Shown here: positions 2,041 through 23,200 of the stretch, in pieces
How the letters are laid out: every line of letters starts with the position of its first letter
Position numbering within the stretch: position 1 is the stretch's first letter
Source of the DNA: a virus
IMG/VR virus record: IMGVR_UViG_3300035205_000176
Span: 1-40,846 of that record
Reading direction: 5' to 3' (one strand)
DNA: 40,846 bases
The notes under the pieces: generated by a model
The model's input: only the letters and a program-made list of their open reading frames with translations
The model's database searches: none
What the model was told of the DNA's origin: nothing
Made by a program: the position numbers and the translations under genes

Positions 2041-3873
2041 ATGGCAGATACAAGTTTAAGAAGTAGATTAAAAAGACTATTTTCAACAAATGTGATTGTA
2101 AGGCATGCTGGTGGAAAGACTTTAAAAGTAGCTGACACAAATAGAGTACAAGCTATAAATAAAGATATCACCGATAGATTTACGAAATTATATACAAACA
2201 TGACAAATATAGGGTATGGTACTAAAAATAGTATGTTTCAATCATCGCAACGAATTGGTCTGTTTCAAGATTATGAAACAATGGATGCAGACCCAATAAT
2301 ATCATCAGCTCTTGATATCTATGCAGATGAATCATCAATGCGGTCTGAGTATGGTCAAATATTAGAAATACATTCGGAAGATAATAATATTAATGATATT
2401 TTACAAAATTTATATTATGATATTATTAATATAGAGTTTAATTTATGGCCATGGATTCGTAATATGTGTAAGTATGGTGATTTCTTTTTACAACTTGACA
2501 TTCATGAAAAATATGGAATTACAAATGTAGTACCATTATCTGCATATGATATTACCAGAGTTGAAGGAGAAGATGAAACTAATCCACATTATGTGAAATT
2601 TATTTTGGAAGGTGGACAAAGTTTACATACATATAAAGCTGGTAAAGTTGACAATGAATTTGAAAATTATGAGATAGCACATTTTAGACTTTTATCAGAT
2701 AGTAATCTATTACCATATGGTAAGTCTATGGTTGAAGGTGCTCGTAAGGTTTGGAAACAATTGTCTCTTATGGAAGATGCTATGTTAATTCATAGAATTA
2801 TGAGAGCACCAGAAAAAAGAATTTTTAAGATTGATATTGGTAATATACCACCAAATGAAGTTGATAATTATATGCAACGTATTATTAATAAGATGAAAAA
2901 AGCACCAGTTATAGATAAAGATACAGGCGATTATAATTTAAAATATAATATTCAGAATTTAACTGAAGATTTTTTCTTACCAGTACGTGGTGGAGATAGT
3001 GGAACTGAAATAACTGAAGCTCCTGGATTATCATATGAAACAGTAGATGACATTGATTATTTACGAAACAAATTATTAGCGGCATTAAAGATACCTAAAG
3101 CGTTTCTTGGTTATGAAGAAGAGTTGAATGCAAAAGCAACTTTAGCAGCAGAAGATGTTAGATTTGCTCGTACTATTGAAAGAATTCAAAGAATTGTTGT
3201 TAGTGAGTTAACAAAAATTGGTATTGTTCATTTATATTCACAAGGATATTGTGATGCAGACCTTGTTAATTTTAGTTTACAGTTGACAAATCCATCTATG
3301 ATATATGAACAAGAAAAAATAGAGTTGTGGTCAAGTAAAATTGATTTAGCTGGAACTATGAAAGATAATAAAATATTATCAACGGAATTTGTGTATGATA
3401 AAATTTTTGGATTTTCAGACCAAGAAAAAGCAACTGTAAGACAACAACTTATTGATGACCAAAAACGACAATTTAGATATGAAGCTATTGAACAAGAAGG
3501 TACAGACCCAGCCGCGGAAGGTGGCCCTGGAGAGGATGAGTTTGGTGAAGATGATTTGGAATCGCCAACTGATGATGGTATGTATAGAACTGGAGATGAA
3601 CTTGGACCAGAAGGTGGTTCACCAGAAGGTGGATGGAAAGGTGCAGGCAGACCAAAAAAACCAGCTAAATTTGGTAAGGATGGTTCGGCTAGAGGAAGAG
3701 ACCCACTTGGAGTTGTTGATATGAAAAAAGGTGGTTCGTCATTAGCTTTAGCTCACTTTGAGAGGTTGAAAAAGTCAATGGGAAAGAAAGATTTACAATT
3801 ATTACAAGAAACAAATTCTTTAGAAGAAGAGTATAAACGAGAAGTAAAAGATACTTTAGATAACGATAAATAA
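2041..3873 (+). CDS. gp20: Portal vertex protein (gp20-like)
   Basis: The dodecameric portal through which DNA enters and leaves the head, and on which scaffold and capsid assemble. T4 gp20-type segments are visible: ALDIYADES near residue 90, APEKRIFKIDIGNIPP near 257, FFLPVRGGDSGTEI near 314 and DIDYLRNKLLAALKIP near 338. It is 610 residues against 524 in T4. The extra length is a C-terminal tail (about residue 480 onward) rich in Gly, Pro, Asp and Glu, followed by a basic and then a helical end. The start follows an AGAGGA ribosome site 12 bases after gp17. The tail could face the head interior or serve the scaffold; that is inference. Confidence 0.94.
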   Translation: MADTSLRSRLKRLFSTNVIVRHAGGKTLKVADTNRVQAINKDITDRFTKLYTNMTNIGYGTKNSMFQSSQRIGLFQDYETMDADPIISSALDIYADESSMRSEYGQILEIHSEDNNINDILQNLYYDIINIEFNLWPWIRNMCKYGDFFLQLDIHEKYGITNVVPLSAYDITRVEGEDETNPHYVKFILEGGQSLHTYKAGKVDNEFENYEIAHFRLLSDSNLLPYGKSMVEGARKVWKQLSLMEDAMLIHRIMRAPEKRIFKIDIGNIPPNEVDNYMQRIINKMKKAPVIDKDTGDYNLKYNIQNLTEDFFLPVRGGDSGTEITEAPGLSYETVDDIDYLRNKLLAALKIPKAFLGYEEELNAKATLAAEDVRFARTIERIQRIVVSELTKIGIVHLYSQGYCDADLVNFSLQLTNPSMIYEQEKIELWSSKIDLAGTMKDNKILSTEFVYDKIFGFSDQEKATVRQQLIDDQKRQFRYEAIEQEGTDPAAEGGPGEDEFGEDDLESPTDDGMYRTGDELGPEGGSPEGGWKGAGRPKKPAKFGKDGSARGRDPLGVVDMKKGGSSLALAHFERLKKSMGKKDLQLLQETNSLEEEYKREVKDTLDNDK

Positions 3874-3927: not shown

Positions 3928-4803
3928 ATGAGTTCACTTATAAAGCATTTAAAAATTAAAAATACTGGAATATTGTTTGAGTTGTTAACAAGACAAGTTA
4001 CAGCTGATATTATGAAAGATGCAAAGAAATCTACGGCTGTCATGTTGATTAAGAAATATTTTAAAGAAAGTACAGAACTTGGTCAAGAATTACAACTTTA
4101 TAATGTGTTAGCACACGAAAAATTTCCACACGAAAATCAAGCCGAAAGGTTAATTGATGCTGTTATTAAAACAAGAACTAAATTATCCAATAAGAAATTA
4201 AAACAAGAAAAATATAATCTTATTAAGGATATAAAAGATAATTATGTTATTAGTGAATTTTTTAGTTCACGTATTCCCAATTATAAACTCTTAGCGTCAG
4301 TATATAAAGTATTTGGATATACTACCGAAGGTCAAAAACATGACCCGACAGATGAAGTTAAAAGTAGATTTGCAATAGTTGAACATATTATTAGAAAAAA
4401 GATAGATAGTAGTATAAAAACAAATAGAATAATTGAAAAATATAAAAAACAAGATAAAGATATGAGATTATTATCTTATAGTATTTTAGTAGACAAGTTT
4501 AATACAAAGTATTCATCTTTAAATGAAGAACAACAAGTTTTACTTAAAAAATATATAGAGAATATTTCAAATACAAATTCTTTAAGAGAATTTATTAATA
4601 ATGAAGTTAAAAGATTAACTAAAACGTTAAAATCAAATTTAAAAGAAGTTGATGACAAAGTTACTACTATAAAATTAAAGGAAGCTACACGATTAACTAA
4701 GAAGATGACAAATCATAAAATTGTTAAGGATAGCGATGTTGTTAATTTAATGAGATATTATGAGTTGGTTAAAGAAGTTAAAAATGTCATTTCAAAAAAT
4801 TAA
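3928..4803 (+). CDS. Unknown helical basic protein after the portal
   Basis: A 291-residue, Lys-rich, mostly helical protein without cysteines or membrane segments. It has a good ribosome site (TTGGAG) and its own promoter-like element. The C-terminal third is strongly charged and could form coiled coils. In T4 the gap between portal and protease holds the small core genes 67 and 68, so a role in prohead core or portal assembly is possible from position only. No gp67 or gp68 motif is visible, and it is far longer than either. The 3' end overlaps the next gene by 20 bases. Confidence 0.8.
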   Translation: MSSLIKHLKIKNTGILFELLTRQVTADIMKDAKKSTAVMLIKKYFKESTELGQELQLYNVLAHEKFPHENQAERLIDAVIKTRTKLSNKKLKQEKYNLIKDIKDNYVISEFFSSRIPNYKLLASVYKVFGYTTEGQKHDPTDEVKSRFAIVEHIIRKKIDSSIKTNRIIEKYKKQDKDMRLLSYSILVDKFNTKYSSLNEEQQVLLKKYIENISNTNSLREFINNEVKRLTKTLKSNLKEVDDKVTTIKLKEATRLTKKMTNHKIVKDSDVVNLMRYYELVKEVKNVISKN

Positions 4804-5026
4804 AGTTAAACAACTTAAAGAGTTGTTAAGACAAATAATAATTGATGTAATAAATGAAGCATCAGTTACTGGTAATATAGATGGGGGTGAAGGCCCCCCA
4901 AAAACACCATATTGGGTGAGTCAAAAGAAAAAGAAGAAAAAGTCTGGATATGGTGGTGGTCATAAGAAACCAACAGTTTTAGGATATATGTTGGCTATTG
5001 ACCCAGAACTAAGAAAAGTTAATTGA
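4784..5026 (+). CDS. Small basic protein with capsid-targeting-like leader
   Basis: From the ATG at 4784 this is an 80-residue protein; an in-frame ATG at 4760 would add eight residues. I prefer 4784 because it puts the leader helix at the N-terminus, as in its neighbours. Residues 6-25 (IKVKQLKELLRQIIIDVINE) form an amphipathic helix ending in I-N-E before Ala26, which fits the T4 gp21 cleavage rule. Cleavage would leave about 55 residues with a Lys6 run and a GYGGGHKK segment, plausibly binding packaged DNA. The gene overlaps its upstream neighbour. Function is inferred; confidence that it is coding is good. Confidence 0.7.
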   Translation: MSFQKIKVKQLKELLRQIIIDVINEASVTGNIDGGEGPPKTPYWVSQKKKKKKSGYGGGHKKPTVLGYMLAIDPELRKVN

Positions 5027-5039
5027 TTTTTGTGATACA

Positions 5040-5240
5040 ATGGCTACGTCTTGGAAAAAAGATGGCCTACACTTTTTACATAGATTACGTAGTTTATCTA
5101 ATTTAAAAAGTAGATGGGTTCTTGAAAATACTAAAGTTAGTGGTGAAGAGCCAAGTAAAGTTGAAACTTTACAATTTATTGATAAATGGATTAAAATACT
5201 GGACGATATGAGAACAGAAATTTTAAAAAGTAGGAGTTAA
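5040..5240 (+). CDS. Small unknown protein
   Basis: A 66-residue basic, helical protein between two head-cassette genes, 13 bases after the previous stop and 3 bases before the next start. Its end overlaps the ribosome site (AGGAG, 5232-5236) of the downstream gene. It has no cysteine, membrane segment or protease site of the I/L-x-E type near the N-terminus. Start context is weak, with no clear Shine-Dalgarno site, so translation may depend on the upstream gene. I do not recognise it. Confidence 0.6.
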   Translation: MATSWKKDGLHFLHRLRSLSNLKSRWVLENTKVSGEEPSKVETLQFIDKWIKILDDMRTEILKSRS

Positions 5241-5243
5241 TAG

Positions 5244-6101
5244 GTGAAACGATTTAAAATAAAAGAAATACATTCTTGGTTAAATCAACTACCAGAAAAT
5301 AAATGGAGAAAAATTTATAAGGTAGATGCTAAAAGAGTAGCTTATTTTGTAAATCATGGTAGTAATGCAACATTACCTGTTACTTTGAGTAGAAAATTTG
5401 GAGATACTTCTTTTCTTAGAGAATTACAATTAGCTAAAAATTTTGTTTTACATAAAATTGATGAGAAAAGAAAATTGGAAGGAAAAAGTAATAACCCTAT
5501 AACTGAAGATGTAGAAATGCATACCATTTCTGGAAATAAAAGGTTTATGACTAAAACGGCACTTCCAATATTAAAGAAACATGGTATTAAAAATGTTAAA
5601 GTAAATGATGTGGCTGGAGATTTTTTAGAAATAAGATTTTTAGTAGATATTAATAAACTTAAAGTTATTGATAAAGAATTAACACGAAAGAATAGAACAG
5701 CGTATGGTGGTATTGTTGAAACATTTAATAAAAAACTTTTAAAAGTAATATATGAAGAAATAATAAAACTTGATAGAAGAGGTATATTAAAAGAAAAATT
5801 ATCTCAAGAAAGTAGAGAATTGCGTCTTTTTATTGATAATGATGCAAGACTTTATAAATCAAGATATATTCCAATACTTAAAAATTTGAGTAAGTTTAAG
5901 AAAAAGGGTAAATATAATTCTAAATTAGCTATAAAAGCTTTTATGTATTTAATTGATGATGGAGCTAAAGTATATGCTAAAGATTATGCCGACGGAGACG
6001 CAAGTATATTTTCAAAAAAGGATAGATTACAATTAGCTAAAGATTATGCTGAAGAATTTGAATCACAATATAATAATCAAGAATTTGATTTTATGAAGTA
6101 A
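5244..6101 (+). CDS. Unknown protein in head-assembly cassette (GTG start)
   Basis: A 285-residue Lys-rich protein read from GTG, chosen because AGGAG lies seven bases upstream and no ATG occurs early in the frame. It has mixed helix and strand, and no membrane segment. A possible prohead-protease site, P-I-T-E before Asp, lies near residue 88 and would separate an N-terminal region from a more structured C-terminal part. It sits directly before the gp21 gene, whose ribosome site overlaps its stop. Position suggests a head-assembly or packaged protein; the sequence itself gives no recognised function. Confidence 0.75.
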   Translation: MKRFKIKEIHSWLNQLPENKWRKIYKVDAKRVAYFVNHGSNATLPVTLSRKFGDTSFLRELQLAKNFVLHKIDEKRKLEGKSNNPITEDVEMHTISGNKRFMTKTALPILKKHGIKNVKVNDVAGDFLEIRFLVDINKLKVIDKELTRKNRTAYGGIVETFNKKLLKVIYEEIIKLDRRGILKEKLSQESRELRLFIDNDARLYKSRYIPILKNLSKFKKKGKYNSKLAIKAFMYLIDDGAKVYAKDYADGDASIFSKKDRLQLAKDYAEEFESQYNNQEFDFMK

Positions 6102-6113
6102 GGAGTTAAAAAG

Positions 6114-6734
6114 ATGTCAAAATCACTTTTAATAGATATTTTACCTTTCGAGGTAACATCTCGCCAAATAAACGAATCTATATCAGATAATAATGGTAGA
6201 TTAGTAGTTAGTGGTGTGTTGCAACGAGCTAATTCTAAAAATCAAAATGGTCGTATTTATCCAAAAGAAGTTTTAATACGAGAAGCTAAAAAATATAGTA
6301 AAGAATTTATTAAACAACGTAGAGCACTTGGTGAATTAGACCATCCAGAGTCTTCGGTTGTTAATTTAAGAAATACATCACATAATGTTAAAGATATGTG
6401 GTGGGAAGGTGATAATTTACTTGGAAAAGTAGAAGTATTATCAACACCAACAGGTAATATTTTAAAAGAGTTATTTAAATCTGGTATAAAACTTGGTATT
6501 TCTTCACGTGGGCTTGGTTCTGTTGAATCAGCAAAAGATGATGATACACAAGAAGTACAAAAAGATTTTGAATTGATTGCATTTGACTTTGTTTCTAATC
6601 CATCTACACATGGAGCATTTATGCATCCAATGAATGAAGGTGTTGATAAAGAAAATACACGTAATGATGGAACTACTTGTGATAAATGGTGTAGAACCGA
6701 AGCAATAATTTCAGATATATTAACTGGAATATAG
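6114..6734 (+). CDS. gp21: Prohead core protease (gp21-like, assemblin fold)
   Basis: This serine protease trims scaffold, capsid and internal proteins during head maturation. It matches T4 gp21 at the key blocks: NGRIYPKEVL (45-54), ALGELDHP (71-78, predicted catalytic His77), MWWEGDNLLGKVEV (95-108) and ISSRGLGS (129-136, predicted catalytic Ser130 or Ser131). Length is 206 residues, close to T4 (212). A self-processing site is likely at Q-I-N-E before Ser near residue 21, and another at M-N-E before Gly near residue 175. AGGAG lies eight bases upstream of the ATG. The C-terminus has a Cys189/Cys193 pair of unknown role. It sits among its predicted substrates. Confidence 0.94.
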   Translation: MSKSLLIDILPFEVTSRQINESISDNNGRLVVSGVLQRANSKNQNGRIYPKEVLIREAKKYSKEFIKQRRALGELDHPESSVVNLRNTSHNVKDMWWEGDNLLGKVEVLSTPTGNILKELFKSGIKLGISSRGLGSVESAKDDDTQEVQKDFELIAFDFVSNPSTHGAFMHPMNEGVDKENTRNDGTTCDKWCRTEAIISDILTGI

Positions 6735-6735
6735 T

Positions 6736-7344
6736 ATGAATCACTCTATGTGGAAAAAGTGGAGAAAGTTTAGACTTGAAGCTTTAAACGAAGGTGATAA
6801 AGACCCAACACTTGAAGGTGTAATAGCTGGTATGACTGGTGCAGCAATGAATCTGATTCCTACTCTTACTAATATGACAAAATATATTGATTTCATTATG
6901 AAACCAAATGACCCTAAAAAAAGTCCAGAAGAAAATGATTTAAATAAATTAACTGTTCGTAATGCACTTGAAGATTTAGATGAAAATGCTAAATTGTTAA
7001 TAAAAAATTATAAATTCATAACGAAATATATTAAAGATGAATATGGATTTACTATGCACGCCAATGATGATAGTGATGAAGACAAAAAAAAAGATGAAGA
7101 TTTAACAGAAGCTGGACAATGGGTTATAAGAATTAAAAAGGGTAAAAGAGTAAAAAAATTAGAATGTCCACCAGGATTTAAAGTAGATAGTGGCGGAAAA
7201 CGTTGTAGAAAACAGACTGCTAAAGATATAAAAACTGGAAAAAAGGCCGCTAGAAAACGAATGAAAAAAATGAGGTCTAAAATGGGTAAGATTCAGAAGA
7301 AAAGAGCCAAATCTTTGAAAAAAAGAGCGAGTATGAATATTTAA
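6736..7344 (+). CDS. Predicted internal head protein with very basic C-terminus
   Basis: A 202-residue protein that appears designed for proteolytic processing. The N-terminal leader is basic and aromatic and ends in A-L-N-E19 before Gly. A second site, D-L-T-E125 before Ala, follows an acidic Asp/Lys stretch. If both are cut, the last 77 residues are released: a short ordered part with Cys144 and Cys157 (KLECPPGF and KRCRKQ) and a tail dominated by Lys and Arg. Such a peptide would bind packaged DNA. It begins 1 base after gp21 and belongs to the same operon. The packaging role is inferred from the sites and context. Confidence 0.75.
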   Translation: MNHSMWKKWRKFRLEALNEGDKDPTLEGVIAGMTGAAMNLIPTLTNMTKYIDFIMKPNDPKKSPEENDLNKLTVRNALEDLDENAKLLIKNYKFITKYIKDEYGFTMHANDDSDEDKKKDEDLTEAGQWVIRIKKGKRVKKLECPPGFKVDSGGKRCRKQTAKDIKTGKKAARKRMKKMRSKMGKIQKKRAKSLKKRASMNI

Positions 7345-7345
7345 T

Positions 7346-7519
7346 ATGAAAGATTTTATAAAAATTGAAAAACAGACTATTAAAAACATTGATAAAGGTA
7401 TTGGTGATACAATTTCTCGTGCTATAAAAACTATATCTCGCGGAACTATTAAAGAATGTAATGGATGTATTAAAAGAAAAGAAACTTTAAATAAAATTCT
7501 TCCTTATAATAGAGATTAG
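7346..7519 (+). CDS. Small CxxC protein
   Basis: A 57-residue protein starting 1 base after the previous stop. The N-terminal half is a basic amphipathic helix. The C-terminal half carries ECNGCIKRKETLNKILPYNR, a Cys-x-x-Cys pair followed by a basic Leu-Asn-x-x-x-Pro block. Similar short endings, where a CxxC pair is followed by R/K-x-x-x-LN and a final Pro, occur in many small phage proteins of unknown function. Two cysteines alone could pair in a dimer to hold a metal ion; that is a guess. No prohead-protease site is obvious. Confidence 0.65.
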   Translation: MKDFIKIEKQTIKNIDKGIGDTISRAIKTISRGTIKECNGCIKRKETLNKILPYNRD

Positions 7520-7521
7520 TT

Positions 7522-7857
7522 GTGATTAAGTTAAAAGATATAGTGGAAGAATCTGTAAACGAAGATTTCTGGGCTACACCAGCCCCATATAGCTCACAAG
7601 AAGCAAAATTACATTTAGATATGGATATTAAAAAAATGTCCAAACATTTAGGTAAAGCGTCACAACAAGTCATTAAAATAATGATGAATGGTGTAAAAGG
7701 TAATAGATATGATGCTTTAGATATACAACGAGGACTTCAACACGGGCCAGCAACAAGAACACATCATGGTGAGGCGGAGTTTATACAAATGCTGTGGAGA
7801 AAAGTTAGAGATGGTTTTCGTAGATATTCGCCAGATAGAAAATTGAAAAGAAAATGA
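7522..7857 (+). CDS. Predicted packaged protein with targeting-like leader (GTG start)
   Basis: A 111-residue protein from GTG, two bases after the previous stop. Residues 1-14 (MIKLKDIVEESVNE) form the same kind of short amphipathic leader as in neighbouring genes, ending in V-N-E before Asp15. The remainder is basic and helical, ending in RRYSPDRKLKRK. The stop overlaps the next ATG in ATGA, a classic coupling arrangement. The N-terminal leader is the reason for accepting this start. The VxE form departs slightly from the T4 I/L-x-E rule, so the cleavage prediction is weaker here. Confidence 0.65.
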   Translation: MIKLKDIVEESVNEDFWATPAPYSSQEAKLHLDMDIKKMSKHLGKASQQVIKIMMNGVKGNRYDALDIQRGLQHGPATRTHHGEAEFIQMLWRKVRDGFRRYSPDRKLKRK

Positions 7858-8651
7858 TTAAAAAGGTTGGAAGTAAATGGGTAGTGTATTCCAAAGATGG
7901 TAGTAAGAAACTTGGTACACATGATACAAAGGAAAAAGCGTTGAAACAATTAGCAGCTATAGAAATTTCTAAACATATACGTTCAGAACTTAAAAAAATG
8001 GTAAAAGAAGTGTTAACTGAAGCTGAAACTTCGGCTATTGGTGGTTATGATTTTGGAAGAACTATGGGTGATTCCGCAAATATACATATGACTACTGGTT
8101 ATCCAAGAGCGTATACTGTTATTGGTAGAGCATTTTATAATAGAGATGATGGTGGTGGTCATTCTTATAAATCATTATATACGGTTTTACTTAATAATAG
8201 AACTGATGAAGTAGTTATTAATGCATTAAATTTAGGTACGGGTGATTCAGCTACAGCGTTTAGAAGTAGTTTAGACGCGTTTGGAACGGATTCAAGGTTT
8301 CCAAGTGATGTGAGAAATATTGTTTATGAGTTTTTAGGTATACCTGACCCATTACTTACATCACCACGAAGATATGATGAAGCGTGGGGAAGAAGTTCTA
8401 CCAGTTGGTTTGGGGGAGGCGGTGGCCCATCTAAACCGATGGATAAAAATATGCCAAATAAATTTTTAATTAATATACCAACATTAAAAGATGCTAAAAA
8501 AATGTTAAAACAATTGAAAGTAAGATGGAAGACTGCGGTAGATGATTTGACTAAGCCTGGTATATGGTATTTTAGAAATAGAAAAGGTGATACTGTTGGT
8601 GGATGGAAAGAAACTCAAAAAACACTTTACTACGAGCGGAAACTTTTTTAA
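7854..8651 (+). CDS. Predicted packaged protein with N-terminal KWVVYSKDG module
   Basis: A 265-residue protein in two parts. Residues 1-40 form a compact module (KWVVYSKDGSKKLGTHDTKE then KALKQLAAIEISKH) of a kind that recurs at the ends of various phage proteins; its role is unknown to me. Residues 41-56 (HIRSELKKMVKEVLTE) are a targeting-type helix ending in L-T-E56 before Ala, a good gp21 site. The downstream part (57-265) is a globular Gly-rich domain with WFGGGGGPSKP in the middle. Cleavage would separate the module plus helix from the cargo. The gene overlaps its predecessor by four bases. Confidence 0.75.
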   Translation: MIKKVGSKWVVYSKDGSKKLGTHDTKEKALKQLAAIEISKHIRSELKKMVKEVLTEAETSAIGGYDFGRTMGDSANIHMTTGYPRAYTVIGRAFYNRDDGGGHSYKSLYTVLLNNRTDEVVINALNLGTGDSATAFRSSLDAFGTDSRFPSDVRNIVYEFLGIPDPLLTSPRRYDEAWGRSSTSWFGGGGGPSKPMDKNMPNKFLINIPTLKDAKKMLKQLKVRWKTAVDDLTKPGIWYFRNRKGDTVGGWKETQKTLYYERKLF

Positions 8652-8659
8652 AGTTTATG

Positions 8660-8667
8660 ATATTTAT
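8660..8667 (+). promoter_or_regulatory. ATATTTAT promoter-like element before the 8673 reading frame
   Basis: GATATTTATATATAA in the 21-base gap after the 8651 stop. It lies only five bases before the ATG at 8673, too close for a normal leader, which bears on where that gene truly starts. Confidence 0.45.
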
Positions 8668-8672
8668 ATATA

Positions 8673-10082
8673 ATGAATAGTGTTTCAAAAAAGAAATGGA
8701 AATCTTTAGTTGCAATAGCCAAAACAGCTGGTGAATTTTCTGGTAAAACTGGTGATTCATATGATGGAAGAGGATATTTTCCAAATAAAAATATGAGTAC
8801 TGCAGTTAAAAATTCTATGGTTGGAAGTGCTAAAATGCAAGGTAAAGCGTTAGTACCGAAAATGGAAAGTCAATATGATGATGAAGGTGTATGGAACAAA
8901 GGAACACGATATTATGATGTTCCTAAAAATATGATTAAACATAAACTTGATGATAAAGTAAAAAAGACTGGTAAAAGAAATTTTATAAATACTGAAAATA
9001 AAATGAAGTATATATTTGGGGAAAGTAAAATGAAAAAATCGGAATTTAATAATTTAGTAAGAAGTATAATTTCCGAAGTAATAGATGTACTTGAAGGTAA
9101 AGGTGCTGGACAGCAACAACAACAACAGCAAGGTGGGGGAGCATCTTCTCCTACACAAAGGGTATCTAAAGGCGGTTTCACATTAAAAGATTTTTCTGCA
9201 GTACTTGGTGGTGTAGGTGGTAGACAAATATTTCAGGGTGAACCAACATCACGAGCAAAAAGTCATTTTCCCATAGAAAAAGACGCAGAAGTGGCTTTAG
9301 CAAAAAGAGGTGAGATACGGTCATTTAAATTAAGTTTATTTAATTTAGGTAAAGGAAAATCAATAGATGCATGGAGAACAATGGTACTTCTTGGTGACAC
9401 AGACCCAATGGAAAAAGGAAAGTATCAAAGAACAGGCCCCGGTGGTGAAACGTCTGGTTATAAAACAAAGAGTACTACTTCTGATATAGATAGTTTAGCT
9501 AGTATACGAAATACAGATGATGCATTTCGTAAAACTGGTGGTGGTGCAAAACGTGGTGGAAGAGAATCATTTAAAGTGAGTGCTAAATATATTAGTTCAA
9601 AAACAGATTCTATAAAAATGTATAACGATGTAATTGACAATGAAATAGTTAAATTAAGAGAGTTACAACAAGATGCCGATGCCGGTGATAAAAATTATGT
9701 TGCACTTGAAAACTTAATAGAAGATTTAGGTTTGAAACAAGATGAATATTCATTAAAATGGGATTACGCTGTAGCTGCATATTCCAATAACACCGCTACA
9801 ATGGCAACTGTTAGAAGTAATATAGAAGCAAAAAGAGACGTTATATTAAAAAGAGCTAGAGAAGTTGGTGGTGGTAAAGAAGGTGGTGGTAAAGAAGGTG
9901 GTGGTAAAGAAGGTGGTAATTACCCAACGTGGGAAGAACGAGGGCAATATTCTTTTGGTGATATAGTTACTGGTAGGTCTGGTAGGGTTTTTAAAGCAAC
10001 GAATTTCGATGGAAAACAAGATGAACGAGGACTTGGGGATTTAGACCCAGAAACAAATCATCCAATGTGGGTAGCACAATAA
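8673..10082 (+). CDS. Predicted packaged protein, KGGFTLxDFS family copy 1, with CBM5/12-like end
   Basis: Open from ATG 8673 (469 residues), but residue 120 is a second Met at 9030 with GGGGA seven bases upstream. From there the protein starts like its two downstream paralogues, with leader MKKSEFNNLVRSIISEVIDV and a likely cut at L-E141 before Gly. It is followed by a Gln7 run and the shared KGGFTLKDFSAVLGG block. The middle is helical (NYVALENLIEDLGLKQDEY). A GGGKE triplicated linker leads to a C-terminal module with Trp, Tyr, GD-x-V and final P-M-W spacing like carbohydrate-binding CBM5/12 domains. The first 119 residues are Lys-rich and look coding, so either start is possible. Confidence 0.75.
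   Translation: MNSVSKKKWKSLVAIAKTAGEFSGKTGDSYDGRGYFPNKNMSTAVKNSMVGSAKMQGKALVPKMESQYDDEGVWNKGTRYYDVPKNMIKHKLDDKVKKTGKRNFINTENKMKYIFGESKMKKSEFNNLVRSIISEVIDVLEGKGAGQQQQQQQGGGASSPTQRVSKGGFTLKDFSAVLGGVGGRQIFQGEPTSRAKSHFPIEKDAEVALAKRGEIRSFKLSLFNLGKGKSIDAWRTMVLLGDTDPMEKGKYQRTGPGGETSGYKTKSTTSDIDSLASIRNTDDAFRKTGGGAKRGGRESFKVSAKYISSKTDSIKMYNDVIDNEIVKLRELQQDADAGDKNYVALENLIEDLGLKQDEYSLKWDYAVAAYSNNTATMATVRSNIEAKRDVILKRAREVGGGKEGGGKEGGGKEGGNYPTWEERGQYSFGDIVTGRSGRVFKATNFDGKQDERGLGDLDPETNHPMWVAQ
9018..9022 (+). promoter_or_regulatory. Possible ribosome site for an internal start at 9030
   Basis: GGGGA seven bases before the ATG at 9030. This Met is where homology to the two downstream paralogues begins. The 8673 start has no Shine-Dalgarno site. 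A perfect T4-type late core, TATAAATACT, lies at 8984-8993. Confidence 0.4.
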
Positions 10083-10107
10083 TAAATTAAGTTAAGTGAG
10101 GATAATC

Positions 10108-11094
10108 ATGGAAAAATCAAAATTTAAAAAATTAATACAAGGTATGGTATTTGAAATGTTAGAAGGTAAGGGAACAGCTCCTGGTTCAACTACAGGTGCC
10201 ACTCTGCGTGGTGCACCTGGTACTGTTTCTAAAGGTGGATTTACATTACAAGACTTTAGTAAAGTACTTGGTGGTGTAGGTGGTAGTAGGACAAGGGGAA
10301 AAGATGCTGGTGGAAAAGGTTCACGAGGTAATGTTCGTGCATCGAAATGGTCTTTATTTAAAGGTGGTCGAAATATAGACAAATGGAGACTTGCTGTACT
10401 TCAAGGTGGTTCAGGAGTTGGTAAAACACATAAAACATCTGCTAAGAATGTGACTCCACAACACGCGTATATGCAAACTAAATCAAAATCAAAGGATGTA
10501 TCTACTAACATAAGTTCTTTAGCGGCTATACGTAAAACAGATGATGTCTTTATTAGGAAAACAGGTGGTCGTAAAATACAAGTAGCAAGTTCTCGGATGA
10601 AAGTTAGTGCGGCATATATTAATCAAAAATCTGCGGCTATTACTGCTTATGAAAATATGATTTCGTCACAAAAAGAATCAATAGAGAAACAAATTGACGA
10701 TATGGTGAACGGTGGTGGTTCTGGTACTATTGAACACATGGCTTTACACGAATTGTTGCTTGATATGGCAATTAGGTTACAAGAATACGAGGTGAAATGG
10801 GAATATGCGACTGCGGCTTATAGTGGTAATACATCGGCTATGGAAGCGGCTCGAAGAAGTCTTGAAAATTTGAAAGATGAAAGATTGTCAAGGTCAAAGC
10901 AAGTAGGTTCAGGACATTATAGTGGAAAACCATCAGTAAGCCCTTGGCAAGAAAAAGGAAATTATAAATTTGGTGACAAAGTAACAGGTAAAAGTGGTAG
11001 AACATTTTTAGCTATCGGTGGAAAGTGGGGTGAAGCATCATTAGGTAAGACTGACCCAGAAAATGACCATCCAATGTGGCAACCGCAGAAATAA
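10108..11094 (+). CDS. Predicted packaged protein, KGGFTLxDFS family copy 2, with CBM5/12-like end
   Basis: A 328-residue paralogue of the neighbouring genes. I use the ATG at 10108 (GAGGA six bases upstream) rather than an in-frame GTG at 10096, since it gives the leader MEKSKFKKLIQGMVFEMLE at the N-terminus, followed by Gly, the predicted protease site. Then come a Gly/Thr-rich linker, KGGFTLQDFSKVLGGVGG near residue 40, a helical middle with QEYEVKWEYATAAYSGN and a C-terminal module (SPWQEKGNYKFGDKVTGKSG, then DHPMW) like that of copy 1. The module resembles CBM5/12. The shared parts show duplication and divergence in place. Confidence 0.8.
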   Translation: MEKSKFKKLIQGMVFEMLEGKGTAPGSTTGATLRGAPGTVSKGGFTLQDFSKVLGGVGGSRTRGKDAGGKGSRGNVRASKWSLFKGGRNIDKWRLAVLQGGSGVGKTHKTSAKNVTPQHAYMQTKSKSKDVSTNISSLAAIRKTDDVFIRKTGGRKIQVASSRMKVSAAYINQKSAAITAYENMISSQKESIEKQIDDMVNGGGSGTIEHMALHELLLDMAIRLQEYEVKWEYATAAYSGNTSAMEAARRSLENLKDERLSRSKQVGSGHYSGKPSVSPWQEKGNYKFGDKVTGKSGRTFLAIGGKWGEASLGKTDPENDHPMWQPQK

Positions 11095-11096
11095 TT

Positions 11097-11810
11097 ATGA
11101 AAAAATCACAAATTAGACAATTAGTTAGAGAAACCATTATGGATATGTTTGAAGCAGAGATATCCAAGGGTGGGTTTACATTACAAGACTTTAGTAAAGT
11201 ACATGGTGGTGAAGCTGGTGGAAGAAAACAAGATAAAGGTTTATTTGACCTACAGAAAAAAGTAGAATTTGGTGTTAAAGGAGCTGATATAGATGCTTGG
11301 AGACATAAAGCTCTATTAAGTGGTGATAAAGAAAAATTACCATCTGCAAAATATCAAAGAGATGTTTCTAAAGTAAAAAGTGTTAGTGCTAAAATAGATA
11401 GTTTAGCGGCTATAAGAGCACAAGATGAACCTTCAAGAAGAGAAACTGGTGGAAGAGCAAAACCATCTACCAAAGTTAGTGCTAAGTATGTAGGTACAAA
11501 AGATGACTCTATTAAACAATATAATCAAATGATGGATGAAGAAATAGCTAAATTGAAGGGAATACAAGAAAAAACTCAAGAGGGAGATGTTAATTTTGTA
11601 GCACTTGGAAATTTGATAGAAGATTTGGAGTTAAGAAAACAAGAATATGCATTAAGATGGGATTTTGTAACGGCGGCGTATAGTGAAAATGCCGCGGCTA
11701 TGGATAATACTCGTGAATCTATTAAAACTGTAAGAAGTCAACTTATGTCAAGACAAAAAGCAGTTGGTAAAGAACCAGAAAAAAATGGTAAAAATGGTGG
11801 TAAAAAATAA
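11097..11810 (+). CDS. Predicted packaged protein, KGGFTLxDFS family copy 3, lacking the CBM-like end
   Basis: A 237-residue protein from the ATG at 11097, two bases after the previous stop; an in-frame GTG at 11076 would overlap and is less likely. The leader MKKSQIRQLVRETIMDMFE is followed by Ala, matching the family, and is almost directly joined to KGGFTLQDFSKVHGG without the long linker of copies 1 and 2. The helical core (KVSAKYVGTKDDSIKQYNQM and NFVALGNLIEDLELRKQEY) is shared. The protein ends in a Lys/Gly tail where the others have a CBM5/12-like module. It is either the ancestral short form or one that lost the module. Confidence 0.8.
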   Translation: MKKSQIRQLVRETIMDMFEAEISKGGFTLQDFSKVHGGEAGGRKQDKGLFDLQKKVEFGVKGADIDAWRHKALLSGDKEKLPSAKYQRDVSKVKSVSAKIDSLAAIRAQDEPSRRETGGRAKPSTKVSAKYVGTKDDSIKQYNQMMDEEIAKLKGIQEKTQEGDVNFVALGNLIEDLELRKQEYALRWDFVTAAYSENAAAMDNTRESIKTVRSQLMSRQKAVGKEPEKNGKNGGKK

Positions 11811-11827
11811 CACTTTAACGGGATGAT

Positions 11828-12499
11828 ATGATGAAAAAGAAAAGTAAATTAAACGAATTTTTTATTGCAGGTGGTGTTGTTAGTCGAAGACCATTCGATA
11901 ACCGAATAGATACACCAGTTAGAGGTTCGGGTATAAAATTATCATCCTTAGTAAAGGAAGGAAATCCAGAATCTTGGGATGAATCTGAAACAACTATGAA
12001 TGTTCAAAGATTTCTTGAAGATGTTAAGAATTATGCACAAATTGGTAATAATATTTATAGAGAAACCAATCTTAAAGAAATAGCTGTTAAAATTTCTGAA
12101 ATTGTTGAGTCTGCAAAGATTCATACTATGAATGAGACGGATGATTGGTTTGATAGAGTATCTGTAAAAAGAAATATGAAGGAATTAGGTTCTCTTGCTA
12201 GTGGGTTTGTTAAAGCTGCTAAAGAATCTAATTTGATGCAACGAAGAATGGAAACTTTATATGAAGATATGGGTAATATATTAAGTAGATATTATGAAAT
12301 AGAAGAAGTTTCTTCCATTACTGAAGCTGAAAAGGTAGATAATTTAGATAAACCAGAGTCTGGTGGTAAAGAAGAATATCAGAAATTTTTCAAATCAGCT
12401 TTAAAGAAATTTGGTGTTGATTCGCCAGATGACCTTGACGAAGAAGAGAAAAAAGAATTTTTTAATTGGGTAGATAAAAATTGGGCAAACAAGAAGTAA
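11828..12499 (+). CDS. Predicted head-core or packaged protein with two protease-type sites
   Basis: A 223-residue protein with an early KLSSLVKE site before Gly near residue 45 and a stronger one, S-S-I-T-E before Ala, near residue 165. The middle is helical. The last 45 residues form a small module (YQKFFKSALKKFGV, then EEEKKEFFNWVDKNW) of a type seen at the ends of other T4-like phage proteins. If the second site is cut, this module is released as an independent mini-domain. Two ATGs (11828 and 11831) are adjacent; a GGGA site lies just upstream. It ends 23 bases before the bS21 gene. Confidence 0.75.
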   Translation: MMKKKSKLNEFFIAGGVVSRRPFDNRIDTPVRGSGIKLSSLVKEGNPESWDESETTMNVQRFLEDVKNYAQIGNNIYRETNLKEIAVKISEIVESAKIHTMNETDDWFDRVSVKRNMKELGSLASGFVKAAKESNLMQRRMETLYEDMGNILSRYYEIEEVSSITEAEKVDNLDKPESGGKEEYQKFFKSALKKFGVDSPDDLDEEEKKEFFNWVDKNWANKK

Positions 12500-12522: not shown

Positions 12523-12738
12523 ATGATAAAAGTGGTTGTAAGAGATAATAAAATAGAATTAGCATTAAAACAATTTAAAAGAAAAGTAAAAGATTCTGGT
12601 TTATTACTTGAATTAAGAGAACGAGAGTTTTATAAAAAACCATCAGATATTAAACGAGTAAAAAAATCAAAAGCAAAATTAAGAATTAAGTACGATAAGT
12701 TACGTAGACAACGTGAAAAAATGCTTCGAGGCTTTTGA
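12523..12738 (+). CDS. rpsU: Ribosomal protein bS21 homologue
   Basis: A complete 71-residue bS21, the small-subunit protein near the 16S 3' end that takes part in initiation on mRNA. The family signature is clear: [19 protein letters not shown], then [17 protein letters not shown], then a Lys/Arg-rich C-terminal helix. Length equals the bacterial protein (about 70). bS21 genes are known in some aquatic and large phages, and this one is inside the late head cassette, just before the scaffold/capsid leader. Start ATG has an AAAGG site. It could replace host bS21 on 30S subunits and bias translation to phage mRNA; that role is inferred, not shown here. Confidence 0.93.
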
Positions 12739-12882: not shown

Positions 12883-13941
12883 ATGGACGACCTTTTGAAA
12901 GACGCAATAGCAGACGCAAAAGCAGTTCGTGAAACAGCATTGGAAAATGCTAAAGTAGCTTTACAAGAAGCTTTCACTCCGAGATTAAATCAAATGCTTT
13001 CTCAAAAGATTCAAAGTGAAGTTGATGACGACATTTATGAAGAAGACGAGGAAGAAGCCGAAGAAGAAGAGGCCGATGAAGAAGAGGCCGAAGAAGTAGC
13101 TGATGATGAAGCTGAAATGGATGCTGAAGAAGCAGACGAAGAAGCTGAAGAAGAAGCTCCTGAAGAGGAAGAAGCCGCTGAAGAAGAACCCGCTGAAGAA
13201 GAGGGTGAAGAAGAAGCTGGCGAAGAAGAAGCAGAAGAAGAGGAAGAAGACGACCTTGACCTTGAAGCAGTTCTGAGAGAATTAGAATCAGAATTGAATG
13301 AAGAGGATGACGAGGAAGGTGACGATTATCCTGTAGCGGATGAAGAAGAACCCGCTGATTTGGGTGAACCACCTGTCGAACTTTCCCCTGAAGATGCAGT
13401 TCTTATGCCAGAACCTTCAGACGAAGAAGGCGAACTTGATTTAGACGCTCCTATGCCAGATGAATATGGCGAGGAAGACGAAGAAGTCGAAGAGGAAATT
13501 GACCTTGAAGAAGTACTTAAAGCTCTACAAGAAGAAGATGAAGAAGATGAAGAAGAAGAAGTTGATGAAATTACTAATCTGAAATCTGAACTTGGAGAAC
13601 ATCGCGAAGTGGTTAAGTACCTGCGGTCTAAATTAAATGAGGTCAATCTACTTAATGCTAAACTCTTGTTTACAAATAAGTTGTTCAGGAATCATTCTAT
13701 GACTAATGAACAGAAAATTAAAGTCATTGAGCAGTTTGACAGAGCTAAGAGTCTACGTGAGGTAAAACTTGTCTTTTCGACAATTGCCGAATCGTTTGGT
13801 TCTAAAGCTAAAAGTGTTAATGAAAGTAAAAAAGGTTCAGCTTCAAAAACTGTTGCTTCAACCAAACCCAAATCAAAGGCTGTTATAGCCGAGGGTTCTG
13901 AATTGAAGACACGTTTTCAGAAGTTGGCTAAGATACTTTAA
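12883..13941 (+). CDS. gp22: Prohead core scaffold protein (gp22-like)
   Basis: A 352-residue scaffold that organises capsid assembly on the portal and is degraded by gp21. The N-terminus (1-48) is an Ala/Lys amphipathic helix. Residues about 49-225 are almost entirely Glu, Asp and Ala. The C-terminal part is helical, with VKYLRSKLNEVNLLNAKLL and LVFSTIAESFGSK, followed by a Ser/Lys linker with V-I-A-E before Gly, a gp21-type site, and a short basic helix. T4 gp22 is 269 residues; the acidic run makes this one longer. It has GGAG upstream and lies 30 bases before the capsid gene. Identity rests on composition, the C-terminal pattern and position. Confidence 0.85.
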   Translation: MDDLLKDAIADAKAVRETALENAKVALQEAFTPRLNQMLSQKIQSEVDDDIYEEDEEEAEEEEADEEEAEEVADDEAEMDAEEADEEAEEEAPEEEEAAEEEPAEEEGEEEAGEEEAEEEEEDDLDLEAVLRELESELNEEDDEEGDDYPVADEEEPADLGEPPVELSPEDAVLMPEPSDEEGELDLDAPMPDEYGEEDEEVEEEIDLEEVLKALQEEDEEDEEEEVDEITNLKSELGEHREVVKYLRSKLNEVNLLNAKLLFTNKLFRNHSMTNEQKIKVIEQFDRAKSLREVKLVFSTIAESFGSKAKSVNESKKGSASKTVASTKPKSKAVIAEGSELKTRFQKLAKIL

Positions 13942-13971: not shown

Positions 13972-15579
13972 ATGTCAAAAAGTAATCTAAAGTCTATTGA
14001 AGGCTTAATGGATAAATATAATCCATATAAAGAACGGCTAGATGAAACTCGTAAGTTGGTAGACAAGTGGGAGCCCACTGGTTTACTCGAAGGTATTGGT
14101 GAAGAATCTAAAGTATTTGGAATGGCATGCTTATTGGAAAATCAAGCTCGTCAATTAATTGATGAGTCTTCCAAGACAAGTACCCAATCTAACTCGGAAG
14201 AGTGGAGTGGTGTTGCACTTCCTTTGGTACGTAGGATTTTTGGTGAATTGGCTGCACAAGATTTTGTATCTGTTCAACCTATGAACTTACCTTCAGGACT
14301 TATTTTTTACCTTGACTTCAAATATGGGTCAGCTCAAGCTGGTCACACTCAGAATTCAGACATACATGGTATGACTTCTGGTTCTGGTGACGCTTCTGGT
14401 GGTCTTTATGGAGCAGGTAAATTCGGATACTCAATTAACGATTCCGTCGCATCTGTAGCATCTGGAAATTATTCTTCCAGTTCAGTTGTTTGGGGTGACG
14501 TTGATTTTGAACCCGACCTGAGTTCTTCTTTAGACAATCTAAGAAAAATTACTATCGCTCTCGCAGACGATGGTATGACAAATCCTGATTTCGATGGCGT
14601 AAGAGCTTTCGAAATTTCAGGTTCTGATACAGCGGCTATCGCAACTCATTACCCAGCTTATGCTAACTGGGATGGTTCGAACTGGAACTTTATTGTAAAG
14701 ACTTCTGGTGCGTACGAAGTTGATGGCTCTGTACACGTGAAGTATCACAAAGCACCTACGGATGTTACTCGTGGTGACTTTGAAGATTCACCTACAGAAC
14801 CTGCAACGGATGCTGGAATTCCTGAAATTGATATTCAGATGAAATCTATTCCGATTGTAGCAAAAACTCGTAAATTGAAAGCTGTTTGGACTCCTGAGCT
14901 TGCTCAAGACCTTAACGCTTATCATTCTGTTGACGCAGAAGCTGAGTTGACTGCTATGTTATCAGAATACATCTCAATGGAAATTGATTTGGAAATTCTT
15001 GATATGTTGATGGCTAACGCCTCTGCAAAAACTGAACGTTGGTCAGCAAGAGTAGGATATGAGTATAACTCATCTACAGCTCTTTTCGCTGCCACATCTG
15101 ATAACGCTTCCGCGTACGTAAAAGGAACTTGGTTCCAGACTCTTGGTAACAAGATACAGTCTGTTTCCAATGCAATCCATCAGAAAACTCTACGTGGTGG
15201 AGCAAACTTTATGGTCGTAAGTCCTGAAGTTGCTACTATCATCGAGTCTATTCCTGGATATGCTGCTGATACGTCTGGTGACGCGACACAAGGTTCATTT
15301 GCAATGGGTGTACAAAAAGTTGGTTTATTGAACAACCGTTTTACGGTCTACAAGAATCCATACATGCAAGAGAACGTAATACTTTGTGGTTTTAGGGGAA
15401 GTAATTTCCTTGAAACTGGTGCTGTATACGCTCCGTATGTACCACTCATCATGACTCCGTTGGTCTATGACCCAACAAACTTTACGCCTCGTAAGGGTGT
15501 GATGACAAGATACGCGAAGAAAATCGTGCGTCCTGAATTCTATGGTAAAGTTGTTGTTGCTGATGTTAACTACGTTTAA
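13972..15579 (+). CDS. gp23: Major capsid protein (gp23-like, HK97 fold)
   Basis: The main shell protein, 535 residues (T4: 521). The N-terminal delta region contains KWEPTGLLEG and FGMACLLENQARQLIDE. Q-L-I-D-E65 before Ser is a consensus gp21 site at the same residue number as the T4 cut (Glu65). The conserved core starts with FVSVQPMNLPSGLIFYLDF near residue 97, and the C-terminus has VPLIMTPLVYDPTNFTPR and TRYAKKIVRPEFYGKV. TTGGAG lies upstream and a strong terminator follows. Codons are more C-ending than in flanking genes, consistent with very high expression. No gp24-like vertex paralogue is in the window. Confidence 0.96.
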   Translation: MSKSNLKSIEGLMDKYNPYKERLDETRKLVDKWEPTGLLEGIGEESKVFGMACLLENQARQLIDESSKTSTQSNSEEWSGVALPLVRRIFGELAAQDFVSVQPMNLPSGLIFYLDFKYGSAQAGHTQNSDIHGMTSGSGDASGGLYGAGKFGYSINDSVASVASGNYSSSSVVWGDVDFEPDLSSSLDNLRKITIALADDGMTNPDFDGVRAFEISGSDTAAIATHYPAYANWDGSNWNFIVKTSGAYEVDGSVHVKYHKAPTDVTRGDFEDSPTEPATDAGIPEIDIQMKSIPIVAKTRKLKAVWTPELAQDLNAYHSVDAEAELTAMLSEYISMEIDLEILDMLMANASAKTERWSARVGYEYNSSTALFAATSDNASAYVKGTWFQTLGNKIQSVSNAIHQKTLRGGANFMVVSPEVATIIESIPGYAADTSGDATQGSFAMGVQKVGLLNNRFTVYKNPYMQENVILCGFRGSNFLETGAVYAPYVPLIMTPLVYDPTNFTPRKGVMTRYAKKIVRPEFYGKVVVADVNYV

Positions 15580-20222: not shown

Positions 20223-23200
20223 ATGGCCAAAATTGAAGAAAAACAATTAGATGACGTTCTTATAGCGGGATTAAGTGGAACAAGTGGTTCTTCTGGTTCT
20301 TCTGGTTCCAGTGGTTCAAGTGGAACGAGTGGAACAAGTGGAACAAGTGGAAGTTCTGGTTCAAGTGGAAGTAGTGGTTCGTCTGGAACAAGTGGAACAA
20401 GTGGTTCGTCTGGTTCCAGTGGAAGCAGTGGTTCGTCTGGCACCGATGGAACTTCGGGTACTGATGGAACTTCGGGTACTGATGGAACAAGTGGAAGTTC
20501 TGGTTCAAGTGGAAGTAGCGGAACAAGTGGAAGTTCTGGAACAAGTGGTTCGTCTGGTTCAAGTGGAAGTTCGGGTTCAAGTGGAACAAGTGGTTCAAGT
20601 GGTACAGACGGAACAAGTGGTTCGTCTGGTTCCAGTGGAAGTTCGGGTTCCAGTGGCTCAAGTGGAACTGATGGAACAAGTGGTTCTTCAGGTTCCAGTG
20701 GCTCAAGTGGAACTGATGGAACAAGTGGTTCTTCAGGTTCCAGTGGCTCAAGTGGTTCGTCTGGAACAAGTGGAACAAGTGGTTCGTCAGGTTCCAGTGG
20801 TTCAAGTGGAACTGATGGTACAAGTGGAACTGATGGAACGTCTGGTACAGACGGAACGAGTGGTTCAAGTGGTTCAAGTGGTTCCAGTGGTTCAAGTGGA
20901 AGTTCTGGAACTGATGGAACAAGTGGTTCATCTGGTTCAAGTGGAAGTTCTGGAACTGATGGAACAAGTGGTGTATCCGATACCTATGTTACAACATCTT
21001 CTACAAGTGTAGCTATACCAACATCACACCCAACCACAGTAACAATTACTGTTGGTACTGGACTTGGATGGAGTACAGGTCAAAAATCTCTTGTAGCTAA
21101 AACAGGTGACGCGTCAAAAAGATTTTTAATGGAAGTAACCAGTTATAATACTGGTACAGGAGTTTTAATAGGTGACTCGGAATCAAATAATGGTACTGGT
21201 ACTATTGATACATGGTCTGTAAATTTAGAAGGTGTTGCAGGAGACGATGGAACATCTGGTTCTTCAGGTTCAAGTGGAACTGATGGTACAAGTGGAACTG
21301 ATGGTACATCTGGTACAGATGGTACGAGTGGTTCGTCAGGTTCAAGTGGTTCAAGTGGTTCAAGTGGGTCTTCAGGAACTGATGGTACAAGTGGTTCCAG
21401 TGGAAGTTCAGGTTCAAGTGGTTCCAGTGGTTCGAGTGGTACAGACGGAACAAGTGGAAGTAGTGGTTCTTCAGGTTCTTCAGGTTCAAGTGGAACTGAT
21501 GGTACATCTGGTACAGATGGAACAAGTGGTTCAAGTGGTTCAAGTGGAACGAGTGGTTCAAGTGGTTCGAGTGGCTCAAGTGGAAGTTCAGGTTCAAGTG
21601 GTACAGACGGAACAAGTGGAACTGATGGAACAAGTGGAACTGATGGAACAAGTGGAAGTAGTGGTTCGTCAGGTTCAAGTGGGTCTTCAGGAACTGATGG
21701 TACATCAGGTTCAAGTGGTAGTTCTGGTTCCAGTGGTTCAAGTGGTACTGATGGAACTTCTGGTTCAAGTGGGTCTTCTGGTTCAAGTGGTTCAAGTGGT
21801 TTAGACGGAAACTTTGGTGGAGCTTCATTTGAATATGATTTTGAAGCAACATTTACTTCAGATTCAGACCCAGGCACTGGGATGTTACGATTAAGTAGTG
21901 CTACACAAAATACTGCTACTGAAATTTATATAGATGATACTGATGTAAATTCTACTGATATACAAAGTTATATGCGTACCATTGACGATAGTACATCAAC
22001 TTTAAAAGGTCATGTAAAGATTTCAAAAAAATTCTCTACTGGTGAATTTTTATTATTTACTATAACAGATTTAACAGAAAATTCTGGTTATTTTACTATA
22101 GCCGTTACTAATGTAGATTATTCAACGGCATCACCATTTGGTGATAATGATGATATAATAGCTACCTTTGCTAGAACTGGTGATAAAGGTGATACAGGCG
22201 AGGCAGGAACAAGTGGAACTGATGGAACGTCAGGTTCAAGTGGTTCATCTGGTTCAAGTGGTTCAAGTGGAACTGATGGAACAAGTGGTTCGAGTGGTTC
22301 GAGTGGTTCAAGTGGTTCAAGTGGAACTGATGGTACATCTGGTACAGATGGAACAAGTGGTTCGAGTGGTTCAAGTGGAACAAGTGGAACAAGTGGTTCG
22401 TCTGGAACAAGTGGTTCTTCTGGTTCTTCTGGTTCTTCAGGTTCCAGTGGTTCAAGTGGAACTGATGGTACATCTGGTACAGATGGTACAAGTGGAACTG
22501 ATGGAACTTCAGGTACAGATGGAACAAGTGGTTCAAGTGGAAGTTCGGGTTCAAGTGGGTCAAGTGGAACAAGTGGCTCGAGCGGTTCAAGTGGGAGCTC
22601 AGGTTCCAGTGGTTCAAGTGGAACTGATGGAACAAGTGGTTCGTCAGGTTCATCTGGCTCGAGTGGTTCAAGTGGTTCAAGTGGATTAACTGGTGATGCA
22701 TATGAAACTACATCTTCTACAAGTGTAGCAATACCAACATCACATCCAACTACTGTTACAATAACAATTGGAACTGGTTTACAATGGACAATTGGTCAGA
22801 CTGCTCTTGTAGCGTATACAAATTTAAAGAAATTTCAAGGTTCAGTAAGTGCATATAATGGTGTAACGGGAGTTGTAGAATTAGCTTCTACATCAAATAC
22901 TGGTACGGGTACTTATGATGATTGGGAAGTAAATCTTGGTGGTGTTGAAGGGCCAGCAGGAACAAGTGGTTCTTCAGGTTCAAGTGGTTCAAGTGGAACT
23001 GATGGAACTTCGGGTACAGACGGAACAAGTGGTTCGTCAGGTTCAAGTGGAAGTTCGGGTTCAAGTGGAAGTTCGGGTTCAAGTGGAACAAGTGGTTCAA
23101 GTGGTACAGACGGAACAAGTGGGTCTTCAGGTTCAAGTGGAACGAGTGGAACTGATGGAACAAGTGGTTCAAGTGGAAGTAGTGGTTCTTCAGGTACAAG

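Follow-up and report, generated by a model that had tools for sequence, protein, structure and literature searches.

Around the head protease gene of a 40.8-kb virus record (IMG/VR record IMGVR_UViG_3300035205_000176, 40,846 nucleotides; hereafter the window), which belongs to a marine T4-like myovirus infecting bacteria, lies a row of genes whose role in the phage head is the question addressed here. The window has a T4-like gene order (large terminase, T4 portal, S77 protease, gp22-like scaffold, gp23, and tail genes), and in the portal-to-scaffold interval, eight open reading frames (ORFs) with amphipathic leaders terminating in hydrophobic-x-Glu flank the S77 protease. An earlier reading made without database searches (the sequence-only reading) had proposed a cassette of packaged internal head proteins, with one targeting helix for many cargoes and gp21-type cleavage sites. 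Our analysis indicates that the cassette probably encodes protease-processed prohead-core precursors, part of them structural and part cargo leaving with the DNA.

We compared the window with a near-identical sister contig (L002) and 79 further gp21 loci. The closest named phages by gp21 were Microcystis phage Mel-JY01 (61%) and Flavobacterium phage immuto (49%), and megablast of the region against GenBank phages gave zero matches. Most cassette ORFs, versus 4 of the 19 other window ORFs, had a hydrophobic-x-E motif at the end of a run without proline in their first 45 aa (62 aa for the protein starting at 7854; cassette proteins are named by start position, Table 1). In the portal–capsid interval of the gp21 relatives, 39% of 260 distinct N-termini carried a leader, compared with 3.1% of shuffled sequences (maximum 6.2%), 5.9% of 153 ORFs elsewhere, and 4% at residues 40–70. 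The strict leader form reached 24% in the interval versus 0.2% after shuffling and was found in none of the 153 ORFs outside. Between gp20 and gp22, relatives had rows of small ORFs starting MIKLKKILSE↓AYVW, MIKLKDLLSE↓QSVE, and MIKLKNILTE↓KKEL (arrows mark candidate cleavage sites). This MIKLKxx[LI][LI]xE start on unrelated cargoes is the geometry of the T4 10-residue capsid-targeting sequence (hydrophobic residues at 4, 7, and 8, and Glu at 10). The relatives display the leader system more clearly than the window, in which the geometry is exact in the 7522 protein (VIKLKDIVEE) and the other leaders are longer variants. Eleven interval cargo clusters carried a leader in at least half of their members under a coarse clustering that fused many families into one large group. 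The loose leader motif was near background genome-wide in the phages S-SM1 and HTVC008M; because it was too noisy at that scale, we used an anchored T4 geometry and a test of Glu at residue 10 (E10).

In the E10 test, a DNA pattern fixing only residues 1–8 (MIKLKDLL) was run on IMG/VR contigs and GTDB genomes, and distinct ORFs of at least 50 aa were counted. The counts in this and the next paragraph are among the matches listed, which are samples, and homologous cargoes are partly non-independent (38 cargo clusters among the 63 viral ORFs with E10). Glu occupied residue 10 in 63 of 72 viral ORFs, while residues 9 and 11–16 were Glu in only 3 to 12 of them, and none had Asp at residue 10. The cellular ORFs with the same start had E10 in 4 of 35 cases (Fisher 1e-14 versus viral); only 12 of these 35 had a short open run upstream, and because many of the cellular matches are not true gene starts, this control is weaker than its size implies. 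In the T4 leader, Asp at position 10 allows targeting and blocks processing (PMC9026906). The exclusive use of Glu without Asp therefore points to a protease site. N-termini might also be alike through a translation-initiation preference or recent duplication and not through targeting, since the early codons are A-rich and three window members are paralogous. However, E10 lies outside any initiation signal, cellular genomes have the same start without it, and the leader, conserved at the protein level, has 41 different DNA encodings in the 63 E10 genes. Together with the 73 cargo clusters described below, these encodings exclude simple duplication. Translation bias and recent duplication were thus rejected by the E10 test and the cluster and encoding counts, and we consider this explanation highly improbable.

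A second leader class, MKKSELKxxIKEEIxxxLxE, which includes the leaders of the three window paralogues, was sampled likewise. Its 78 ORFs had hydrophobic residues at 10, 14, and mostly 18, and Glu:Asp ratios of 54:2 at residue 12 and 45:4 at residue 20. The E10-pattern proteins (105) fell into 73 cargo clusters (BLASTP or phmmer, E 0.01). Pfam domains among them included zeta toxin/AAA_33 (6 proteins each), RNase_T (2), and, in one protein each, Mom, NUDIX, ADP-ribosyltransferase exoenzyme, HD, 5'-nucleotidase, cell-wall hydrolase, and MPTase-PolyVal. Sharing of one leader by non-homologous cargoes is therefore clear beyond the window. Within it, the claim that the cargoes are mutually diverse held in part, as the 9030, 10108, and 11097 proteins are paralogues (40–48% identity to 11097). 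Just upstream of the part common to the window, L002 encodes zeta/AAA_33-like and CTP_transf_like proteins with leader-like N-terminal helices. Leaders were also swapped on the same cargo. The 7522 cargo occurred behind a MIKLKDLLGE leader, behind YKRLMEINE-type leaders, and after lengthy N-terminal extensions that likewise terminate in INE↓A. The C-terminal domain of the 5244 protein constitutes the entire cargo of a MIKLKDLLVE protein (L192), with 58% identity beginning directly after the leader. As a separate observation, two adjoining MIKL-leader proteins of Mel-JY01 (60276-60926 and 62056-62718; 276-926 and 2056-2718 of locus L091) have a VWHLT/VWHVT motif that appears ADP-ribosyltransferase-like by eye; a Pfam search of them gave no match.

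As the sequence-only reading had stated, the protease inside the cassette is a true S77/gp21 enzyme. Its preference can be calibrated from the capsid protein, because the gp23 site of the window (LIDE65↓S) fits the published gp21 motif L/I-X-E (PMC9026906). This site has the same residue number as T4 LTE65↓A (T4 numbering counted by hand), and relatives have I/V-x-E before S/A/T. The alignment of leaders across relatives proposed by that reading showed an invariant site Glu in three families. The 4784 family, with matches in 73 loci, had P1 Glu in 42 of 42 distinct leaders and L/I/M at P3, while the surrounding leader was variable. E56 was invariant in 6 of 6 aligned sequences of the 7854 family, followed by A or S, and the site Glu of the paralogues in 6 of 6, with M or V at P3 in the window.

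All ORFs and starts listed in the sequence-only reading (4784, 6736, 7522 [GTG], 7854, 9030, 10108, 11097, and 11828) are real, and its motifs INE25↓A, LNE19↓G, LTE125↓A, VNE14↓D, LTE56↓A, VLE22↓G, MLE19↓G, MFE19↓A, and ITE166↓A are present. Its principle was right and its sites mostly right, with the following amendments. The ORF at 5244-6101 had been missed from its member list. The 9030 start exists as an internal, in-frame start of a longer ORF that begins at 8673, and the same fusion occurs in locus L007. For the 7522 protein, VEE10↓S is likelier than VNE14↓D because a relative with 65% identity (L235) reads MIKLKDLLGE↓S. In the 11828 protein, ITE166↓A was dropped as a cleavage site: its position is not conserved, and the linker holding it is absent from most relatives. 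The likelier candidate is LVKE44↓G or the relatives' N-terminal KIKLKDLLxE. Pfam, PHROGs, and PDB sequence searches of the window cargoes gave nothing informative beyond the gp68-type tail of the 6736 protein. The 7854 and 11828 proteins had weak matches to unnamed PHROGs, and the best PDB match of the window cargoes, a SusD-family protein (E 0.0059), was judged to be chance. AlphaFold models of the 7854 and 11097 proteins were poor (mean pLDDT 50 and 51).

Table 1 Head genes and leader-bearing cassette members of the window, with candidate cleavage sites.
Feature	Position	Strand	Evidence, leader, and sites
Portal (gp20-type)	2041-3873		
Small protein between gp20 and gp21	4784..5026	+	Leader residues 1-25 (4784-4858), ends INE25↓A
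5244 protein	5244..6101	+	C-terminal domain aa 181-285; candidate site LKE184↓K
gp21-type S77 prohead protease	6114..6734	+	PF03420 1.5e-31, phrog_207 4e-56; candidate self-cleavage sites INE21↓S, MNE175↓G
gp68-like core protein	6736..7344	+	Leader WKKWRKFRLEALNE19↓G (6736-6792); second site LTE125↓A (to 7110)
Leader-tagged protein	7522..7857	+	GTG start; VIKLKDIVEE10↓S (7522-7551); VNE14↓D of the sequence-only reading (to 7563)
7854 protein	7854..8651	+	Order from the N-terminus: 40-aa domain, helix, site LTE56↓A (to 8021), cargo
Paralogue 1	8673..10082	+	Leader MKKSEFNNLVRSIISEVIDVLE22↓G from in-frame ATG 9030; site ends 9095
Paralogue 2	10108..11094	+	Leader MEKSKFKKLIQGMVFEMLE19↓G (10108-10164)
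Paralogue 3	11097..11810	+	Leader MKKSQIRQLVRETIMDMFE19↓A (11097-11153); alternative VRE12↓T
Conserved head-operon protein	11828..12499	+	Likelier site LVKE44↓G (to 11959); ITE166↓A (to 12325) not conserved
gp22-like acidic scaffold	12883..13941	+	Position before gp23, acidic composition, homologues; sites LQE29↓A, IAE337↓G
Major capsid protein gp23	13972..15579	+	phrog_138 1.1e-72; own site LIDE65↓S

To relate the leaders to virions, we used the anchored T4-geometry motif. In T4, it was found in four genes, IPII, IPIII, gp24 (annotated as gp21-cleaved), and gp61.1. In cyanophage S-SM1, it was found in two genes, gp5 and the T4-GC190 cytidylyltransferase (leader MKKFSAFLNE↓A), a count not significant alone (p 0.056). 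T4-GC190 was detected among the proteins of purified S-SM1 virions (PMC3037559). Among 80 relatives of GC190, residues 4, 7, 8, 10, and 11 never varied, while P2 varied. The proposal of one targeting helix with a gp21-type site on many cargoes thus gains support, well outside the window too, from the position-specific E10 signal, leader swapping, and this virion-borne cytidylyltransferase. The other newly detected cyanophage-core virion protein, T4-GC15, is a tail protein by its S-SM1 annotation and was uninformative on leaders. Separately, gp61.1 (NC_000866 18966-19130, L586) is a 54-aa protein starting MKTFKEFIKE↓DMVAGD, with the exact T4 capsid-targeting geometry, and is from its sequence a candidate uncharacterised internal protein of T4. 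It adjoins 61.2, which is described as the DarT inhibitor AdfA (PMC9391042).

The virion-borne GC190 bears on a reading in which all cassette members are core or scaffold proteins of the gp67/gp68 type: they would give the head its form, undergo degradation by gp21, and for the most part exit the head, and none would be payload. T4 gp67 and gp68 are encoded between gp20 and gp21, most or many gp21 loci contain members of the 4784 and 11828 families, and the paralogue model is all helix, at low confidence. The C-terminal part of the 6736 protein matches phrog_3503/33445, the same PHROGs that T4 gp68 weakly matches; the two proteins have these families in common and no direct BLASTP match. No gp67/gp68-type PHROG match was found for the other cassette members searched. 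However, the leaders are carried elsewhere by enzymes (Nudix, exonuclease, ADP-ribosyltransferase, Mom, and zeta-like kinases), the genes between gp21 and gp22 turn over quickly among relatives, and GC190 stays in virions. We therefore regard a purely structural cassette as unlikely, and the mixed cassette of core proteins and cargo is preferred. The view that every member is payload was in turn only partly upheld: a structural role in the core, without injection, is probable for the gp68-like 6736 protein and for the 4784 and 11828 proteins, which are widely conserved, whereas the probable cargo, acting early in the host, comprises the 7522 and 7854 proteins, the C-terminal domain of the 5244 protein, the three paralogues, and the kinase-like and cytidylyltransferase-like proteins of L002.

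The link between leaders and head protease was evaluated in contigs of at least 16 kb, with control contigs picked using a codon-reversed pattern. S77 was found in 18 of 46 leader contigs versus 7 of 46 control contigs (p 0.018), and three more leader contigs had a T4 portal, two of these at or near the contig end. The relaxed pattern MIKL....[hydrophobic][hydrophobic].E occurred at least once in each of 35 of 35 leader contigs (mean ca. 2.6), in which the backward-read pattern was absent, and in none of the 46 control contigs, the seven S77-bearing ones included. A strict leader–S77 link was tested and not retained, the association being only statistical. Several results weigh against the preferred reading of protease-processed precursors. 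S77 was present in only 18 of the 46 leader contigs, while the seven S77-bearing control contigs and HTVC008M, which also has S77, showed no enrichment of such leaders. G096 (behind L253, 207 kb) had three MIKL-type leaders, and S77, S78, and T4 portal were not found in it, which implies either another head protease or a wider leader role. In addition, P1' was unrestricted in the MIKLK set, unlike the E↓A/E↓S of the T4 leaders seen in this analysis, and P3 was Met in two of the paralogues. A docking or localisation peptide (for a phage compartment, a membrane, or a partner protein) independent of head proteolysis would fit the leaders in contigs without detectable S77, S78, or T4 portal and the cargoes resembling cytoplasmic metabolic enzymes (5'-nucleotidase and DnaQ-type exonuclease). 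Against this stand the exclusive Glu without Asp at residue 10, the clustering of leader genes beside gp21 in relatives, the same geometry in T4 IPII, IPIII, and gp24, and the S77 enrichment. We judge such a peptide to be rather improbable, even less probable than a purely structural cassette.

Under the preferred reading of processed core precursors, a mechanism can be drawn by analogy with T4 (PMC9026906, PMC3012670, PMC12373910). The short N-terminal amphipathic helix would dock each precursor to the scaffold core during head assembly, the gp22-like scaffold being the presumed docking partner. The S77 protease of the cassette, presumed to be the processing enzyme, would then cut after hydrophobic-x-Glu and release the mature protein from the core, a step supported by the conservation of the site. 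The leader peptides would exit the head and the mature protein would remain with the DNA, as GC190 supports. Cleavage and packaging of the window's own proteins are inferences supported by their sequences and by this analogy. The cargo would finally leave the head with the DNA and act early in the host; injection and action in the host are proposed from T4.

Like T4 IPI–III and Alt, the cassette has the ten-residue leader with hydrophobic residues 4/7/8 and Glu 10 (exactly in the 7522 protein; the others are longer), the L/I-X-E site of an S77 protease, and one leader on unrelated cargoes; ADP-ribosyltransferase-like cargo, as in Alt, occurs among its wider relatives. In contrast, the cassette genes are part of the head operon and surround gp21, whereas those of T4 are in separate loci, and the cassette has more members, three of them paralogous, with MIKLK, MKKSELK, and WRDWRL leader types. 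Its cargo showed no homology to IPI–III in the searches run. The cassette resembles T4 gp67/gp68 in lying between gp20 and gp22 beside gp21 and in the PHROGs common to the 6736 protein and gp68, but it has ca. 10 genes versus two plus gp21, and most members have no gp67/gp68 match. Cleavage after a short x-x-E motif also recalls the ejection proteins of the giant phage SPN3US, where the gp245 prohead protease cuts after A-X-E (PMC10052503). The cargo repertoire of the leader proteins overlaps that of injected polyvalent proteins, which carry ART, zeta kinase, Nudix, and MPTase domains (PMC5512222). However, these systems have long propeptides or giant multidomain proteins, unlike the short leaders and many small cargoes here.

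The system thus appears to be a variant of T4-type capsid targeting that is more widespread, with more leader classes and cargoes, than the open-licence literature searched describes; MIKLK gave nothing relevant in the full text of open-licence papers. On balance, we lean towards the view that MIKLKxxLxE and MKKSELKxxIKEEIxxxLxE are a widespread, undescribed head-loading tag in tailed phages (T4-like and possibly others), packaging dozens of unrelated enzymes and inhibitors (ADP-ribosyltransferase-like, zeta-kinase-like, Nudix, nuclease, Mom, and metallopeptidase) for delivery with the genome. Great sequence diversity makes phage-injected proteins, which face the first defences of the host, difficult to identify; if this view is true, the tag alone would identify injected early-infection proteins from sequence. 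In T-even phages, injected proteins have been found via their leader, and 3 of 3 T4 examples inhibit type IV restriction enzymes (PMC12373910). Should the present leaders serve the same purpose, injected proteins with testable cleavage sites could be picked out by a ten-residue motif across much of uncultured phage diversity, and new head-loading tags would become available for protein delivery by phage particles.

Three further features of the window were noted. A short cysteine-containing ORF (7346-7521, ca. 57 aa) lies between the 6736 and 7522 genes; no leader was seen in it, and a homologue is present in locus L012 at 4556. A 3111-aa protein, probably a fibre (20223-29558), consists mainly of GSSG/GTDG repeats interrupted by short globular segments, and these repeats keep long ORFs open in other frames too. 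A phage bS21 ribosomal protein gene (12523-12738) is located in the head operon directly upstream of the scaffold gene, and a bS21 gene is found at the same position in Mel-JY01 and most relatives spanning the region.

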